This document shows positions 10,158-45,731 of a DNA stretch of 64,000 nt, in pieces. Position 1 is the first letter of the stretch. Each line of letters begins with the position of its first letter. This stretch comes from Modestobacter sp. DSM 44400 (GTDB lineage: Bacteria > Actinomycetota > Actinomycetes > Mycobacteriales > Geodermatophilaceae): positions 1-64,000 of the forward strand of contig NZ_FNOZ01000021.1 of NCBI RefSeq assembly GCF_900107175.1, given 5' to 3'. The notes beneath the pieces are model-generated. The model had not been told where the DNA came from, ran no database searches, and saw only the letters and a list, made by a program, of their open reading frames with translations. Made by a program: the position numbers and the translations under genes.

Positions 10158-12044
10158 ATGGCACGAGCAGTCGGTATCGACCTCGGCACCACCAACTCCG
10201 TCGTCGCTGTCCTCGAGGGCGGCGAGCCCACCGTCATCGCCAACGCCGAGGGCGCTCGCACGACGCCGTCCGTCGTCGCGTTCGCGAGGAACGGCGAGGT
10301 CCTGGTCGGCCAGTCGGCCAAGAACCAGGCGGTCACCAACGTCGACCGCACCATCCGCAGCGTCAAGCGCGAGATGGGCACCAGCTGGAAGACCGGCGAG
10401 ATCGACGGCAAGGCGTACACCCCGCAGGAGATCAGCGCGCGGGTACTGCAGAAGCTCAAGCGCGACGCCGAGACCTACCTGGGTGAGCCGGTCACCGAGG
10501 CCGTCATCACCGTCCCCGCCTACTTCGAGGACGCCCAGCGCCAGGCCACCAAGGAGGCCGGGGAGATCGCCGGCCTGAACGTGCTGCGCATCGTCAACGA
10601 GCCGACCGCTGCCGCGCTGGCCTACGGCCTGGACAAGGGCGACACCGAGCAGACGATCCTCGTCTTCGACCTGGGGGGCGGCACGTTCGACGTCAGCCTC
10701 CTGGAGATCGGTGACGGCGTCATCGAGGTCAAGTCCACCGCCGGTGACAACAAGCTCGGTGGCGACGACTGGGATGAGCGGGTCGTCAAGCACCTGGTGC
10801 AGACCTTCAACGTCTCCAACGGCATCGACCTGTCGAAGGACAAGCTCGCGATGCAGCGTCTGCGGGAAGCCGCGGAGAAGGCCAAGATCGAGCTTTCCGG
10901 CGCACAGTCGACGAACATCAACCTGCCCTACATCACCGCCGGTGCCGACGGCCCGCTGCACCTGGACGTCACGATGACCCGGGCGGAGTTCCAGCGGCTG
11001 ACCCAGGACCTCCTGGACCGCACCAAGGCCCCGTTCAACCAGGCGATCCGGGATGCCGGCGTCTCCGTCGCCCAGATCGACCACGTCGTCCTCGTCGGTG
11101 GCTCCACCCGGATGCCGGCCGTCAGCGACCTGGTCCGCGAGCTGACCGGCGGCAAGGAGCCCAACAAGGGCGTCAACCCCGACGAGGTCGTCGCCGTGGG
11201 TGCCGCGCTGCAGGCCGGCGTGCTCCGCGGCGAGGTCAAGGACGTCCTGCTGCTGGACGTCACCCCGCTTTCCCTGGGCATCGAGACCAAGGGCGGCATC
11301 ATGACCAAGCTCATCGAGCGCAACACCACGATCCCGACGAAGCGCTCGGAGATCTTCACGACGGCCGACGACAACCAGCCCAGCGTGCAGATCCAGGTCT
11401 TCCAGGGTGAGCGCGAGATGGCCGCCTACAACAAGAAGCTCGGCATGTTCGAGCTGACCGGGCTGCCGCCGGCACCGCGTGGCGTCCCGCAGGTCGAGGT
11501 GGCCTTCGACATCGACGCCAACGGCATCGTGCACGTCCACGCCAAGGACCTGGGCACGGGCAAGGAGCAGTCGATGACGATCACCGGCGGCTCGGCCCTG
11601 CCCAAGGACGACATCGCGCGGATGATGGCCGACGCCGAGGCGCACGCCGAGGAGGACAAGAAGCGCCGCGACGACGCCGAGACGCGCAACCTCGCCGAGT
11701 CGCTGCAGTACCAGACGGAGAAGTTCCTCGCGGAGAACGGCGACAAGATCCCCGAGGAGAAGAAGACCGAGCTCGGTGAGGCTCTCAGCGAGCTGCGAGG
11801 CGCCCTCGGTGGCTCCGACATCGCCGCCATCAAGGCTGCGCAGGAGAAGGTGGCCCGGGTCTCCCAGGAGGTCGGTGGGGCGCTGTACGCCCAGCAGTCG
11901 GAGGCCGCCGGCGGTGACGTCCCCGGCGGTGCCACCGACGCCGGTGCCACCGACGCCGGTGCCCCGGGCGCGCAGAGCGCCCCGTCCAACGACGACGACG
12001 TCGTGGACGCCGAGATCGTCGACGAGGACACCGACAAGCGCTGA
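10158..12044 (+). CDS. dnaK: Hsp70 chaperone DnaK
   Basis: The 628-residue ATP-dependent chaperone of the cytosol works with DnaJ and GrpE, encoded just downstream. The nucleotide-binding domain (1-360) shows [45 protein letters not shown] and [12 protein letters not shown]. The substrate-binding domain has [17 protein letters not shown] and the lid is about 480-590. The C-terminus ends in an acidic [18 protein letters not shown] tail preceded by an AGATDAG-type tandem repeat. The ATG has a GGAAGAGAGAGG site. The long open frame on the opposite strand is a composition artefact well known for dnaK. Confidence 0.99.
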
Positions 12045-12135: not shown

Positions 12136-12735
12136 ATGAGCGAGCACAACAGCGACACCGAGTTCGAGGCGCCGGCCGCGGCCGCCGAGCCGATGGACGA
12201 GGTGGACCGCCAGCTGGCGGAGCGCCTCGAGGACCTCCAGCGGATCACCGCCGAGTACGCCAACTACCGACGCCGGGTCGAGCGTGACCGGGTGCTCGTC
12301 GTCGACCAGGCCGCCGAGCGCTTCGCGGGGCAGCTGTTCCCGATCGTCGACGACATCGAGCGGGCCCGGGACCACGGCGACCTCACCGGCGCCTTCAAGG
12401 TGGTCGCCGACCGCGTGTTGGGGCTGCTCGACGGTCTCGGCGTGGCCACCTTCGGCACCGCCGGCGACCCGTTCGATCCCGCACTGCACGAGGCGGTGCT
12501 GCACGACACGTCCCCGGACGTGTCGGTGCCGACGGCCAGCACGGTGCTCCGTCCGGGCTTCCGGCGGGGTGACCGCGTGCTCCGGACGGCGATGGTCGGG
12601 GTCACCGACCCCGAGTCCCCGGCACCCGCCCCGGCCGGCGCCGCCGACGTCATCGACGGTGACGTCATCGACGGCGAGGTCATCGACGACCCGGCGCAGC
12701 CCGAGGGCTCCACGGCCGGCCCGACCGCCGGCTGA
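12136..12735 (+). CDS. grpE: Nucleotide exchange factor GrpE
   Basis: GrpE releases ADP from DnaK. The 199-residue protein has an acidic N-terminal arm, the coiled-coil dimerisation helix with RLEDLQRITAEYANYRRRVERD (about 30-52), and the beta-wing region with FDPALHEAVLHD and GFRRGDRVLRTAMVGV. After the family core comes a 45-residue tail rich in Ala, Asp and Pro, with a VIDGDVIDGEVIDD repeat. That tail is longer than in many homologues. The ATG is preceded by GGGAGAG at good spacing. It is the second gene of the dnaK operon. Confidence 0.97.
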   Translation: MSEHNSDTEFEAPAAAAEPMDEVDRQLAERLEDLQRITAEYANYRRRVERDRVLVVDQAAERFAGQLFPIVDDIERARDHGDLTGAFKVVADRVLGLLDGLGVATFGTAGDPFDPALHEAVLHDTSPDVSVPTASTVLRPGFRRGDRVLRTAMVGVTDPESPAPAPAGAADVIDGDVIDGEVIDDPAQPEGSTAGPTAG

Positions 12736-12805
12736 GCACCCTCCCCACCGTCCGTTCCGGCCTCCGGCACCCGCCAGGTCGACCCCCGCAGGAAGGGAGC
12801 GCCCG

Positions 12806-12934
12806 ATGATCGAGCCCACCAGGTCCGGCTCCCCTGCGGAGCAGCCATGGAGTGCGTCGAAGACGTCTGATACCCCTGCGGAGCAGCGATTGACCGTGCC
12901 GAAGGCATCTGACACCCCTGCGGAGCAGCGATGA
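12806..12934 (+). CDS. 42-residue tandem-repeat ORF in the dnaK operon
   Basis: The ORF starts with ATG after AGGAAGGGAG, an excellent ribosome-binding site, and its TGA overlaps the dnaJ ATG (ATGA at 12931-12934). Its sequence contains three copies of a 42-base unit beginning at 12831, 12873 and 12915, each starting CCCCTGCGGAGCAG. The period is exactly 14 codons, so the peptide repeats SDTPAEQ-type units ([21 protein letters not shown]). It has no membrane segment and should be hydrophilic and disordered. I know of no such gene in dnaK operons. It may be a real small protein, a coupling leader for dnaJ, or a minisatellite that happens to stay open. Each unit also carries a CGGAG that could bind ribosomes before the dnaJ start. 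Confidence 0.5.
12831..12929 (+). repeat. Minisatellite of 42-base units
   Basis: Three copies begin at 12831, 12873 and 12915; the last is partial and ends at the dnaJ start. The first 14-15 bases of each unit (CCCCTGCGGAGCAGC) are identical, while the rest has diverged, for example AAGACGTCTGA against AAGGCATCTGA. The same 14-base core occurs once more near 21530 between aceB and glcD. Confidence 0.85.
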
Positions 12935-14154
12935 GCAGCACCCGGGACTTCATCGAGAAGGACTACTACGCGGCCCTGAGCGTCGCCAAGGACGCTGACG
13001 CCGCGGCCATCAAGAAGGCCTACCGGCAACTGGCACGCGAGCTGCACCCGGACAAGAACCCGGACAATGCCGCGGCCGAGACCCGCTTCAAGGAGGTGTC
13101 GGAGGCCTACGACGTCCTCTCCGACCCCAAGCGGCGGTCGGAGTACGACGAGGCGCGCCGGCTGTTCGGCTCCGGTGGCTTCCGCCCCGGCGCCGGGGGA
13201 GCCGGCGGCTTTCCCGGGGGCGCCGCCGGTCAGCCGTTCGACCTCGGTGATCTGTTCGGCCAGGCGGCCGGTTCACCGGGTGCCGCCGGCGGCCGCGCCG
13301 GAGGTCTGGGTGACCTGTTCGGCGGCCTCTTCGGTGGCGGGGGAGGCGCCGCAGCCGGCCCCCGCGGCCGGAGTCAGGCGGCGTCCGGGCCGGCCCGCGG
13401 TCAGGACGTCGAGACCGAGGCGACGCTCTCCTTCGACGAGGCCGTCCTCGGGGTGACCGTTCCTCTGCGCATGCAGAGCCCGGGCACCTGCGCCACCTGC
13501 CACGGCAACGGCGCCCGGCCCGGCACCAGCCCGCACACCTGCCCGGTGTGCAACGGCGCGGGGGTCACCAGCCGCAGCCAAGGGGCGTTCGCCTTCTCCG
13601 AGCCCTGCCGCGAGTGTCGCGGCACCGGCTCGGTCGTCGACGACCCATGCCCGGAGTGCAAGGGCGCCGGGGTCACCAACCAGACCCGCACCATCACCGT
13701 GCGCATCCCGGCCGGGGTCAAGGACGGCCAGCGCATCCGGCTGGCCGGCAAGGGCGCCCCCGGGCGGCGAGGTGGGCCGGCCGGCGACCTGTTCGTCGTG
13801 GTCCACGTCAGCGTCTCGGAGCTGTTCGGCCGGTCCGGCAGCGACCTGACCCTGACGGTGCCGATCAGCTTCGCCGAAGCGGCGCTGGGGACGACGCTGA
13901 CCGTGCCCACCCTGGACGCCCCGGTGTCGCTGAAGGTCCCCGCCGGGACCACCAGCGGGCGAACCTTCCGGGTCCGTGGCCGCGGCGTGCAGGGCAGGAG
14001 CGCGCACGGGGACCTGCTGGTGACCGTGGAGGTCGCGGTGCCCAAGAAGCTCACGCCGGCCGCCCGTGAGGCGATCGAGAAGCTGGCCACCGAGCTGCCC
14101 GACGACCCCCGCCCGGAGATCACCGCGGCGCTGGGGGCTGGAGGTGCGCGATGA
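12931..14154 (+). CDS. dnaJ: Hsp40 co-chaperone DnaJ
   Basis: DnaJ delivers substrates to DnaK and stimulates its ATPase. The 407 residues show the J domain (10-75) with [13 protein letters not shown] and HPD at 39-41. A Gly/Phe-rich linker (about 80-155) follows. The zinc-binding domain has four CxxCxGxG-type repeats ([32 protein letters not shown]), and then come the C-terminal beta domains. The Gly/Phe linker is longer than in Escherichia coli DnaJ. This arrangement matches the actinobacterial DnaJ1 that is cotranscribed with hspR. The start overlaps the stop of the 42-codon ORF, and the stop overlaps hspR. Confidence 0.98.
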
Positions 14155-21503: not shown

Positions 21504-21545
21504 TGGGTCAGGGGCCGCCGTTCCAGTTCCCCTGCGGAGCAGGGT

Positions 21546-23147
21546 TCAGGGCATGCGCTCGTAGGCCGGGACGGTGAGGAAGTCGGGGTACTCGTCCGCC
21601 AGCGCCATCTCGGTGAACAGGGCCCGCGCATCGTCCCACCGGCCGGCGGCGAAGGCATCCCCGCGGGCGTCACGGATCTTGCCCATCTCGTCCTCGATCA
21701 CCTGCTCGACCAGCTCGCGGGTGACCTGCTGGCCGTCGGCGAGCGTCACGCCGTTGTGCAGCCACTGCCAGACCTGGCTGCGGGAGATCTCTGCGGTGGC
21801 GGCGTCCTCCATCAGGCCGTTGATCCCGGCGGCGCCGGAACCGCGCAGCCACGACTCGACGTACTGGATGCCGACGCTGATGTTGGCCCGCAGTCCGGCC
21901 TCGGTGGCCTCACCCGGGGTGGACTTCACGTCCAGCAGCTGGGCGGCGGTCACCGAAACGTCCTCGCGCAGCTTGTCCAGCTGGTTGGGCTTGTCGCCCA
22001 GCACCTTGTCGAAGACGTCCATCGCGGTCTGGACCATGCCCGGGTGGGCCACCCAGGAGCCGTCGAAGCCGTCATTGGCCTCGCGGGTCTTGTCCTCGGT
22101 GATCTTGTTGTAGGCGAATTCGTTCGCCTTTGGGTCCTTGCTCGGGATGAAGGCGGACATGCCGCCGATTGCGTGCGCGCCGCGTTTGTGGCAGGTGCGC
22201 ACCAGCAGTTCGGTGTAGGCCCGCATGAACGGTACGGTCATGCCGACCGAGTTGCGGTCCGGCAGGGTGAAATCCTCACCCCGGGTCCGGAACATCTTGA
22301 TGACGCTGAACATGTAGTCCCAGCGGCCGGCGTTGAGCCCGGCGGAGTGCTCGCGCAGCTCGTAGAGGATCTCCTCCATCTCGAACGCGGCCGGGTAGGT
22401 CTCGATCAGGCAGGTGGCGCGGATGGTGCCGCGCGGGATGCCGAGAGTGTCCTGCGCCAGGTTGAAGGCGTCGTTCCACAGCCGCGCCTCGAGGTAGCTC
22501 TCCATCTTCGGCAGGTAGAAGTAGGGCCCCTGGCCGCGGTCGATCTGTTTCTGCCCGCAGGTGGACAGGTAGAGCGCGAAGTCCACCAGGCTGCCCGAGG
22601 TCTGCTGACCGTCGACCAGGATGTGCTTCTCCGGCAGGTGCCAGCCGCGCGGCCGCACGATGATCGTGGGCAGCTCCTCGTCGGGCTCGAGGGTGTAGGC
22701 CTTGCCCTGGGGGCTGGTGAAGTCGATCGTGCGGTCGATGGAGTCCATCAGGTTCAGCGGGCCGTTGACGACGTTCTCCCACAGCGGGGAGTTCGCGTCC
22801 TCCTGGTCGGCGAGCCAGCACTTGGCGCCCGAATTGAGCGCGTTGATGGTCATCTTGCGGTCGGTGGGGCCGGTCATCTCCACACGGCGGTCGACCAGGC
22901 CGGGAGCCGGCTCGGCCACCCGCCACGAGTCGTCGGAGCGGATGTGCGCGGTCTCGGGGAGGAAGTCCAGCGTGCCCCCGTCGGCCAGCGCCTGCACTCG
23001 CTCGGCACGGGCCTGCAGCCGCTCCAGGCGCCGGTCGTTGAACTCGCGGTGGAGCAGGGCGATCAGCTCCAGCGCACGAGTCGTGAGGACCTCGTCGTAG
23101 CGCTCGCCCATCGGGCCGGTGATCTCCACACCGTCAACCGTGCTCAT
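21546..23147 (-). CDS. aceB: Malate synthase A
   Basis: This enzyme condenses glyoxylate with acetyl-CoA to malate in the cytosol. The 533-residue length is that of the A form (the G form, common in actinobacteria, is about 720). Visible motifs are TDRKMTINALNSGAK, FLADQEDANSP-type LADQEDANSPLWENV, RPRGWHLPEKH (catalytic arginine region), GTIRATCLIETYPAAFEMEEIL, the GGMSAFIPSK block, and GDGFDGSWVAHPG with the catalytic-base region AAGINGLMEDAATAEISR. A GGGAGAG site precedes the ATG. It is first of the minus-strand glyoxylate block and divergent from iclR. Confidence 0.97.
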   Translation of the reverse strand: MSTVDGVEITGPMGERYDEVLTTRALELIALLHREFNDRRLERLQARAERVQALADGGTLDFLPETAHIRSDDSWRVAEPAPGLVDRRVEMTGPTDRKMTINALNSGAKCWLADQEDANSPLWENVVNGPLNLMDSIDRTIDFTSPQGKAYTLEPDEELPTIIVRPRGWHLPEKHILVDGQQTSGSLVDFALYLSTCGQKQIDRGQGPYFYLPKMESYLEARLWNDAFNLAQDTLGIPRGTIRATCLIETYPAAFEMEEILYELREHSAGLNAGRWDYMFSVIKMFRTRGEDFTLPDRNSVGMTVPFMRAYTELLVRTCHKRGAHAIGGMSAFIPSKDPKANEFAYNKITEDKTREANDGFDGSWVAHPGMVQTAMDVFDKVLGDKPNQLDKLREDVSVTAAQLLDVKSTPGEATEAGLRANISVGIQYVESWLRGSGAAGINGLMEDAATAEISRSQVWQWLHNGVTLADGQQVTRELVEQVIEDEMGKIRDARGDAFAAGRWDDARALFTEMALADEYPDFLTVPAYERMP

Positions 23148-34605: not shown

Positions 34606-34710
34606 GAAAGGACCTCCTCCTGGCGGAAGGATTCCCTCCCGCATCCCTTCGCAGGCTCAGCAGAAGGACCCCGTCCCGCATCCCCTCGCAAGTTCAGGGA
34701 AGCCCTGGAC
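34601..34710. repeat. Dispersed intergenic repeat, family 1, copy 2
   Basis: The complement of this segment reads CCAGGGCTTCCCTGAACTTG, GGGATGCGGGACGGGGTCC and GAGCCTGCGAAGGGATGCGGG, in the same order as at 3528-3618. The two copies are in opposite orientation. Like the first copy it sits in a convergent gap, here between the MFS exporter and the osmC gene, and it overlaps the exporter stop codon. Confidence 0.65.
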
Positions 34711-39153: not shown

Positions 39154-39720
39154 TCAGCCCTCGATGTTGTCCTGCACGCACTGCTGGTATTGGACCTGGT
39201 CGCCGGTCTCCTGCAGCTGGTCGACACAGTCGCCCACGGTGTTGAAGACGAGCACGGTGAGCACCAGGACGACGACGCCCAGCAGTGCGCCGAGGATGCC
39301 GGTCACCAGTCCGGCGATGGCCATCCCGCGGTTGTCCGCCCGGCGGGCCCGCACACGACGTAGCCCGAGCACAGCGAAGACAATCGCGAGCACGCCCAGC
39401 AGGATGCCCGGAATGCCGCCGAAGAAGGCCGCCGGGAGCGAGAGAATGCCCAGCACCAGGGCCGTGATGCCGAAGCCGTTGGACCGAGCCGGCTGGGCCT
39501 GTTGGCCGTACCCACCCTGGGTTCCGTAGTGCTCCGGCGCCGGGTAGGGCGCGGGCTGCCCGTAGCTCTGGGGTGTCCCGTAGCCCTGCGACCCGTAGCC
39601 CTGCGACCCGTAGCCCTGGGGTGGGTAACCGGGCTGCCCGCCGGGCGCGCCGTGCTCGGGATGTGGCTGCCCGTCGCCGGGGTGCTGGGATTCCGGCGGA
39701 GGACCCGGTGGTGTCGTCAC
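39154..39720 (-). CDS. DUF4190-type membrane protein with a Gly/Tyr/Gln-rich N-terminus
   Basis: The 188-residue protein has an N-terminal disordered region rich in Pro, Gly, Gln and Tyr, with a GYGSQGYGSQGYG tandem repeat, then two membrane helices (FGITALVLGILSLPAAFFGGIPGILLGVLAI and AIAGLVTGILGALLGVVVL). These match the DUF4190 pattern, in which Gly-rich helix pairs repeat. The C-terminus has two cysteines outside. Function is unknown. The GTG at 39720 follows a TACGCT box by six bases, a leaderless layout; the longer frame to 39816 is less likely. Confidence 0.8.
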   Translation of the reverse strand: MTTPPGPPPESQHPGDGQPHPEHGAPGGQPGYPPQGYGSQGYGSQGYGTPQSYGQPAPYPAPEHYGTQGGYGQQAQPARSNGFGITALVLGILSLPAAFFGGIPGILLGVLAIVFAVLGLRRVRARRADNRGMAIAGLVTGILGALLGVVVLVLTVLVFNTVGDCVDQLQETGDQVQYQQCVQDNIEG

Positions 39721-45050: not shown

Positions 45051-45731
45051 GTGACGACCGCCCGGCTGTCCCGCGCCATCGTCGCCGCCGTCCTGACCGG
45101 GCTGGTGGCCGCCACCAGCGCCTGCGGGTCCGACGACGGGAACTCGGGTGCCGCCTCGTCGGCCTCGGCGTCGGCGTCCGCCGGGTCGCCGGCCGGCGCC
45201 GCGGGGTCGACGTCGGCGGCCGCCCCCGCCGCCCCGTTCGGTCCCGGCTGCGCCGGCCTGCCCGCCGACGGGCCGGGCAGCCTGGCGGCGATGGCCACCG
45301 TCCCGGTGGGCACCGCGGTCAGCCAGGACCCGCTCACCACCGCGCTGACCGAGGCCGTGCTCGCGGCCAACCTGGTCGACGTGCTGAACACCCGGCAGGA
45401 CATCACCGTGCTCGCGCCGGTCGACACGGCGTTCCAGGCGATCGAGCCCGGCGCGCTGAGTGCGCTGCTGGGCGACACCCCGCGCCTGACCACCGTGCTC
45501 ACCCACCACGTGATCAACGGCCGGCTCGCGCCCGATCAGCTGGTGGGCGAGCACACGACGCTCAACGGCGACACGGTGACGATCGCCGGCTCCAGTACCG
45601 ACCTGACGGTCGCGGCGGACCAGACGCTGGCCGGCGCTGGGCCGGCCACGGTGGTCTGCGGCGACGTACCGACCGCGAACGCCACGGTCTACCTCATCGA
45701 CCAGGTGCTCGCCCCGCCCGCTGCCGGCTGA
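45051..45731 (+). CDS. Fasciclin-domain lipoprotein
   Basis: The 226-residue secreted lipoprotein starts with a signal peptide (SRAIVAAVLTGLVAATSAC) whose lipobox ends at C25. A Ser/Ala-rich linker follows, then one fasciclin (FAS1) domain with DPLTTALTEAVLAANLVDVLN, ITVLAPVDTAFQAI, LTTVLTHHVINGRL and ATVYLIDQVLAPP. FAS1 proteins such as mycobacterial MPB70/MPT83 are cell-surface adhesion-type proteins. The GTG at 45051 is preceded by CAGGAGAG. It precedes pyrE by 46 bases. Confidence 0.92.
   Translation: MTTARLSRAIVAAVLTGLVAATSACGSDDGNSGAASSASASASAGSPAGAAGSTSAAAPAAPFGPGCAGLPADGPGSLAAMATVPVGTAVSQDPLTTALTEAVLAANLVDVLNTRQDITVLAPVDTAFQAIEPGALSALLGDTPRLTTVLTHHVINGRLAPDQLVGEHTTLNGDTVTIAGSSTDLTVAADQTLAGAGPATVVCGDVPTANATVYLIDQVLAPPAAG

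Follow-up and report, generated by a model that had tools for sequence, protein, structure and literature searches.

Why a 42-codon open reading frame built of tandem repeats should stand between grpE and dnaJ is the question raised by the DNA analysed here, a stretch of 64,000 nucleotides of Modestobacter sp. DSM 44400 (the window). The ORF listing places the frame at 12806..12934 on the forward strand, running from ATG to TGA, and direct reading shows the dnaJ ATG at 12931 overlapping the leader TGA at 12932-12934. The ORF, the upstream AGGAAGGGAG and this ATGA overlap are all as an earlier note on the same DNA had described them. The features of the interval are the following.

12136..12735, forward strand: grpE (Pfam)
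12790..12799, forward strand: Shine-Dalgarno-like site AGGAAGGGAG, which now precedes the leader ORF
12806..12934, forward strand: leader ORF made of three in-frame 14-codon blocks, its TGA overlapping the dnaJ ATG
12806..12846, forward strand: element copy 1, 41 nt from start to start, 14 codons; at its end ATGG replaces the usual NTGA
12834..12844, forward strand: hairpin of copy 1, CTGC-GGA-GCAG; the DNA fold of the piece alone favours another pairing
12847..12888, forward strand: element copy 2, 42 nt, 14 codons in the leader frame
12876..12886, forward strand: hairpin of copy 2, CTGC-GGA-GCAG
12889..12930, forward strand: element copy 3, 42 nt, 14 codons in the leader frame, abutting the dnaJ start
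12918..12928, forward strand: hairpin of copy 3, CTGC-GGA-GCAG, containing GGAG 12922-12925
12931..14154, forward strand: dnaJ (Pfam DnaJ, DnaJ_CXXCXGXG and DnaJ_C)

The array at the leader (period 42, 2.5 copies, 83% matches, score 143) is the top-scoring of the 24 tandem-repeat rows obtained with TRF in the window. The 42-base repeat is therefore real, but where three units had been counted TRF delimits two complete units followed by some 20 bases of a third. A repeat-family search of 12700-13000 returned no family, and TRF together with direct inspection settle the array as real. The 15-mer CCCCTGCGGAGCAGC has three exact occurrences in the leader and one with a single mismatch at 21529, and when up to two mismatches are allowed the window holds 5 matches against 1.19 expected, a number reached in none of 100 shuffles. 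The leader frames stay in register because ATGA reads ATGG after copy 1 and because copies 2 and 3 measure 42 rather than 41 bases; the ancestral state would be three 14-codon micro-ORFs, from whose joining in frame the 42-codon ORF would arise. The GGAG of the third hairpin ends 5 nt upstream of the dnaJ ATG, and from its position it would act as a second Shine-Dalgarno site for dnaJ.

The recurrence of the repeat core near 21530, which had also been pointed out earlier, proved to be a second copy of the same dispersed element (21508-21551), and it is close to certain that each leader unit is a copy of a dispersed element of ~41-44 bp belonging to Geodermatophilaceae. With as many as 3 mismatches allowed, a 30-base core is present in 9 of 112 genomes of the family, own genome included, and a reversed-pattern control of this core gave no match in the same 112 genomes. 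An 18-base core with up to 2 mismatches is found at 22 places in genome G031 versus none in the G031 control, at a threshold loose enough that 56 of the 112 genomes match somewhere and some have 1-2 control matches. A covariance model, R1, was built from 66 element copies, after one of the 67 rows of the first alignment (window 45292-45328, minus strand) had been set aside as a match due to chance. At E up to 0.05, R1 finds matches in 34 of the 112 family genomes, partly by construction since some of them supplied the sequences of the model: 14 genomes have 4-28 matches (14 in the own genome, 28 in G031, 23 in G051 and 20 in G026), and the other 20 have 1 or 2, possibly by chance. When 32 selected genomes were rescanned with an E limit of 0.1, the 14 rich ones gave 4-29 matches and the 18 others 0-2. 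At E up to 0.001 with strict filters, matches were obtained in 14 of 396 genomes sampled from the order and in 2 of 393 from the class, all of them Geodermatophilaceae, and none beyond this family in either sample. Judged from these scans, the distribution of the element within Geodermatophilaceae is patchy and extends over several genera. Of the 14 matches in the own genome 12 places were listed; among these the copy at dnaJ is the one clear start-side case, and the other listed copies with an assignable context lie at reverse stops or inside a gene. A viral carrier was considered and rejected, the single exact 18-mer in IMG/VR lying in an unrelated-looking reading frame and being, by eye, due to chance. 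Near a contig end of another genome (L211, G013 contig 193) lies an array of six CAGC/GCTG-type or near copies, ~44 bases apart.

The consensus of the element reads CCGNAGGCNTCCGGTTCCC, then C-NN-C GGA G-NN-G, then YG, often followed by N-T(G/C)A, the stem pairs being mostly CTGC/GCAG, CAGC/GCTG and CACC/GGTG, and rarely CAAC/GTTG or CGGC/GCCG. In 160 matches picked without a pairing rule, all four stem pairs are formed in 70, whereas shuffles of the 3' arm gave a mean of 13.2 and a maximum of 23, a test that is not fully free of bias since the loci were fetched by likeness to a paired core. It is nevertheless fairer than a covariation test on the 66 model rows, which is biased because nearly all of these rows were chosen with four pairs. 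A plain pattern search, counted manually, found the exact compensating double change from CTGC/GCAG to CAGC/GCTG in 16 rows. As far as comparison of copies can demonstrate it, the element thus has a covarying hairpin, CNNC-GGA-GNNG. When four-pair stems were sought without a loop rule, 81 matches were obtained, with the loop GGA in 66, GCA in 2 and GAA in 1; the other 12 have non-GNA loops, three of them on CGGC/GCCG stems, and were judged chance matches from where they lie in the loci. If so, the loop of the element would always be GNA, and mini-hairpins of the C-GNA-G type are unusually stable in DNA form. Taken whole, the leader RNA is as stable as its shuffles (z 0.08), and DNA folds of seven single-element pieces are weak, three of the seven favouring another hairpin; a strong RNA structure of the leader was rejected on these two results. 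A known RNA family was likewise rejected, the sole Rfam match (E 0.16) being far under the cut-off and beside the interval. Given the ordinary structure of the leader RNA and the weakness of its hairpins, the hairpin may count for more in the movement of the element as DNA than in translation.

In order to describe placement, 90 copies were grouped into 66 sites, sites at orthologous genes being counted separately, and gene boundaries were called by a simple codon-usage score; the window copies 12879 and 12921, which fall below the score cut, were added by hand and both belong to one site. At 25 of the 66 sites the element ends 0-3 nt before the start codon of the downstream gene, and at another 20 its end follows the stop codon of an opposite-strand gene by 0-7 nt; the corresponding shares among 19,537 positions drawn at random from these loci are 2.3% and 0.37%. 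The 20 reverse-stop distances are all 1, 4 or 7. The remaining 21 sites abut no called boundary, and some are inside genes: 9 precede a forward frame that has no start there, 7 have no clear coding frame and 5 are on reverse frames. In five loci (L215, L231, L233, L235 and L247) the copies lie inside a scored frame of the opposite strand, seemingly at one orthologous place, the own genome included. Arrays elsewhere likewise vary in copy number, and the 24 array spacings, the window's two included, range from 24 to 51 nt and once reach 90, so that they are not confined to multiples of 42; modulo 3, 13 of them equal 2, 11 equal 0 and none equals 1. Sites at the same genes turn up in more than one genus, for which vertical descent or a function, rather than mobility, could be the reason. 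No common functional theme emerged among 20 hand-chosen proteins at the sites, ten from each side. By Pfam, those on the start side include HTH_PafC/WYL, UvrD helicase, Ham1, HIT, ABC permease, amidase, DUF2469, a tetrapyrrole methylase with a NAD-binding domain, LGT and NADH dehydrogenase 49 kDa, and those on the stop side PAPS reductase, AAA ATPase, thioredoxin, ATP synthase alpha/beta, T2SSF, class-II DAHP synthase, thiolase, DUF3017, DUF429 and malate synthase. With the same unit found before many unrelated genes and, inverted, behind others, the element is not a feature of dnaJ.

Micro-ORFs were analysed at 26 start-side sites, namely the 25 of the placement count and L188; L164, L201, L202 and L223, which have no gene start in place, were left out. 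An ORF of 13-15 codons runs through the element at 16 of the 26 (for example MSAPKACGSPAEQR, MNGPEAAGSPAEQR and MNQPKVSSSPAEQC), and at 20 of the 26 an NTGA in frame with the element makes a 4-nt overlap with the gene start. These micro-ORFs are of about 14 codons, encode peptides of the SGSPAEQ type and contain the GGAG Shine-Dalgarno core. At L169, L185 and L192 the element instead lengthens the C-terminus of the preceding gene before the same overlap. Because the element brings its own start, ribosome-binding site and stop, the downstream gene is probably still translatable. At L164 (G031 contig 1, ~829936) the copy stands before a gene with a flagellar-looking translated start, about 3 kb before csrA.

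The grpE-dnaJ interval was then compared among relatives. Two of the 102 loci given (L105 and L106) had no confident hits and were skipped, and the 100 examined are not all distinct genomes, as the named and genus sets overlap. The element stands between grpE and dnaJ in 4 of these 100: Blastococcus capsensis (L020), Blastococcus sp. DSM 46786 (L036), Geodermatophilaceae bacterium URHB0062 (L046) and the window's own genome (L086). Two more genomes, reached through the element itself, have a copy at dnaJ, G031 (L175) and G054 (L240). The other members of the genus that were compared, 18 loci (L087-L104), all lack the element in this interval, and their gaps measure 70-88 bases versus 198 in the window genome. 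M. lapidis (L012; L089 is the same interval) has nearly the upstream sequence of the window and no element, and there CGCAGGAAGGGGGCGCCC lies immediately 5' of the dnaJ GTG, reading CGCAGGAAGGGGGCGCCC and then directly GTGAGCAGC. Since CGCAGGAAGGGGGCGCCC abuts the dnaJ start in M. lapidis, the insert of the window sits between dnaJ's own Shine-Dalgarno and its start codon. No target duplication is legible at dnaJ itself beyond ATGA. In a DnaK tree (76 of 81 rows), in which the own genome groups with Modestobacter rows, the dnaJ element, present in 4 labelled rows, needs 4 changes, at least 2 of them forced by starred branches; a single origin is therefore not supported, and losses are possible too. 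Taken with the recurrence of orthologous sites across genera, the tree makes repeated gain, loss or both possible at dnaJ. In many other Modestobacter (L088-L104) the ~82-base gap consists mostly of a long GC-rich inverted repeat, terminator-like in appearance, which in such form is found neither in the window (12736-12805) nor in M. lapidis.

Based on these observations we consider it probable that the leader is a tandem array of three copies of the dispersed element, inserted between the Shine-Dalgarno and the start codon of dnaJ and coupling translation in the manner of a MIRU. The former Shine-Dalgarno of dnaJ (12790-12799) would now load ribosomes onto the leader, and a ribosome translating the 42 codons would open the small hairpins, terminate at ATGA and re-initiate on dnaJ, aided by the GGAG 5 nt upstream; the leader peptide would be a by-product. 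Such an insertion may be tolerated because the element rebuilds the initiation site, and copies beyond opposite-strand stops because nothing is broken there. That the element couples the translation of dnaJ, a role that the earlier note had already suggested for the leader, is likely.

CsrA binds GGA in loops. The element may alternatively be a post-transcriptional regulatory site, such as a CsrA target, in which a GGA hairpin loop over the Shine-Dalgarno controls translation, and the position of this loop over a core 5 nt before the ATG, the recurrence of gene sites across genera and the presence of csrA in 100 of the 112 family genomes, own included, are in its favour. We nevertheless regard it as improbable. 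With csrA present in so many genomes, most of those with few or no copies among them, CsrA does not explain the patchiness of the element; the genes at the sites have no common function, the stop-side copies would give TCC and not GGA in the transcript of the preceding gene, and the structure predictions are weak. There is a still smaller chance that the element is a REP mobilised by a Y1 transposase of the RAYT kind. It is short, hairpin-bearing, dispersed, found in arrays and close to coding sequence, and REPs, as described in PMC3733652, are likewise small palindromes scattered through the genome, some of which may reach into a stop codon or an ORF. However, the Y1/RAYT transposase family PF01797 has no match in the 112 family genomes, whereas 5 of 14 control genomes match, the consensus of the 66 copies has no GTAG or CGTC tag, and, unlike REPs, the element carries its own micro-ORF and start.

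It is slightly less probable again that the ORF encodes a genuine small protein of the heat-shock operon, as the earlier note had proposed, with 14-residue SPAEQ repeats selected as a peptide. The frame is open through all three units behind a good start site, and SPAEQ-type peptides recur before other genes. Yet the two full leader units differ at 9 of 42 bases, split 2/4/3 over codon positions 1, 2 and 3, which shows no synonymous bias and nothing suggesting a conserved peptide. The 42-residue product has no Pfam match at E up to 0.01, the 18 other genus loci lack the element, and its dispersed copies include the same DNA inverted behind genes. The least credible account is an ordinary minisatellite formed by slippage at dnaJ without wider meaning, for which the tandem array, and the variable copy number of arrays elsewhere, may be cited, but which fails to account for the presence of the unit, its sequence and hairpin conserved, at dozens of unlinked places across several genera; slippage may still act as a local multiplier of the unit at dnaJ.

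Some copies bear traces of insertion, among them the second copy of the window.

21508..21551, forward strand (R1 match 21511-21547): second window copy, inverted beyond the malate synthase stop (TCA 21546-21548)

Its hairpin is CCCTGC-GGA-GCAGGG, and TCAGGG flanks it at 21508-21513 and 21546-21551. The gene concerned is malate synthase by Pfam, an identity as isocitrate lyase having been rejected. The element stands beside this stop, with TCAGGG on both sides, in 2 of 19 genus loci (own and L262), and no copy is seen there in the other 17, among which L261 covers just 23 bases past the stop. Behind atpD it is present, by eye, in 2 of 21 loci, the own one, as an array with repeated GATCAGGTCTTCTTCAG, and L310. 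At some sites the start-codon region appears on both sides of the element, as in L188 (CGATGAGCAC) and L208 (GGATGAGCG). The suspicion of a partly mobile motif, raised by the earlier note, is likely to be correct, and the element would spread, or would once have spread, by inserting at NTGA/TCA with duplication of the target. We may tentatively go further and envisage, as a possibility that we think more doubtful than not, a minimal mobile element of ~35-45 bp recognised through a single-stranded DNA mini-hairpin (C-GNA-G with an otherwise free stem), targeting and duplicating NTGA/TCA, bringing along a first cistron with its own Shine-Dalgarno and moved by something other than a Y1 transposase. 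If true, such targeting would make it land on start-stop overlaps and on stop codons of either strand, and the ready-made first cistron would be the reason why such an element survives.

Among known systems, mycobacterial MIRUs are repeats of 46-101 bp that form tandem arrays and share the direction of the neighbouring genes, and the senX3-regX3 spacer is a MIRU locus. MIRU stands for mycobacterial interspersed repetitive unit (Supply et al. 1997). According to the review PMC12548453, MIRUs are seemingly mobile; they insert at start codons, with their internal ORF coupled to the gene at a spacing of -4 nt, and probably leave its expression intact. PMC2453075 gives 77 and 53 bp for the repeat units of the senX3-regX3 spacer. 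The closest known kind to our element is, on the best reading, the MIRU, which would work alike, the two being compared by architecture and description only. Both are short interspersed repeats at start codons with an ORF overlapping the gene at -4 nt, and the element is both interspersed and tandem (14 matches in the own genome and up to 28 elsewhere; 24 array spacings). In contrast to MIRUs, it belongs to Geodermatophilaceae and not to mycobacteria, its unit is mostly 41-51 nt, it has a covarying hairpin with a GGA loop, and about 30% of its sites (20/66) are inverted beyond stop codons and there do not follow the direction of the neighbouring gene.

A likeness also exists to leader ORFs and bicistronic designs, in which, as PMC4833913 has it, a short first cistron is thought to hand ribosomes to the next gene, the difference being that here the first cistron is an interspersed repeat. 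The same paper reports a distance peak at 10-11 bp for leader ORFs and excludes overlapping leaders; the coupled-leader architecture is found in the window, with GGAG at 12922-12925, TGA at 12932-12934 and ATG at 12931. The TAACTGA direct repeats of Beggiatoaceae likewise stand immediately before the start codons of genes that share no function, but they are heptamers, for which the abstract of PMC4679880 claims no micro-ORF or hairpin. In the literature within reach, which excluded most subscription papers, we found no such element for Geodermatophilaceae, no start-codon elements beyond mycobacteria and no account of how MIRUs move. With a second set of such repeats in environmental relatives, where occupied and empty sites, target duplications and hairpin covariation can all be observed, the way in which MIRUs move would become testable without a pathogen. 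The element would also be a natural counterpart of engineered two-cistron constructs, distributed over housekeeping genes, dnaJ among them. For annotation it carries a warning, as micro-ORFs of this kind belong to a repeat and do not represent new protein families.

Other tandem repeats were noticed in the window. Repeats of 15 bases lie within grpE (12645-12688, in an acidic tail of the VIDG type) and close to where dnaK ends (11927-11963, in a GATDA-type tail), a 37-base unit is present almost twice in tandem at 34626-34697 (82% matches), apparently in intergenic DNA, and a perfect 15-base repeat of 2.8 copies (CCCGTAGCCCTGCGA) at 39577-39618 looks Gly/Tyr/Gln-rich on the minus strand.
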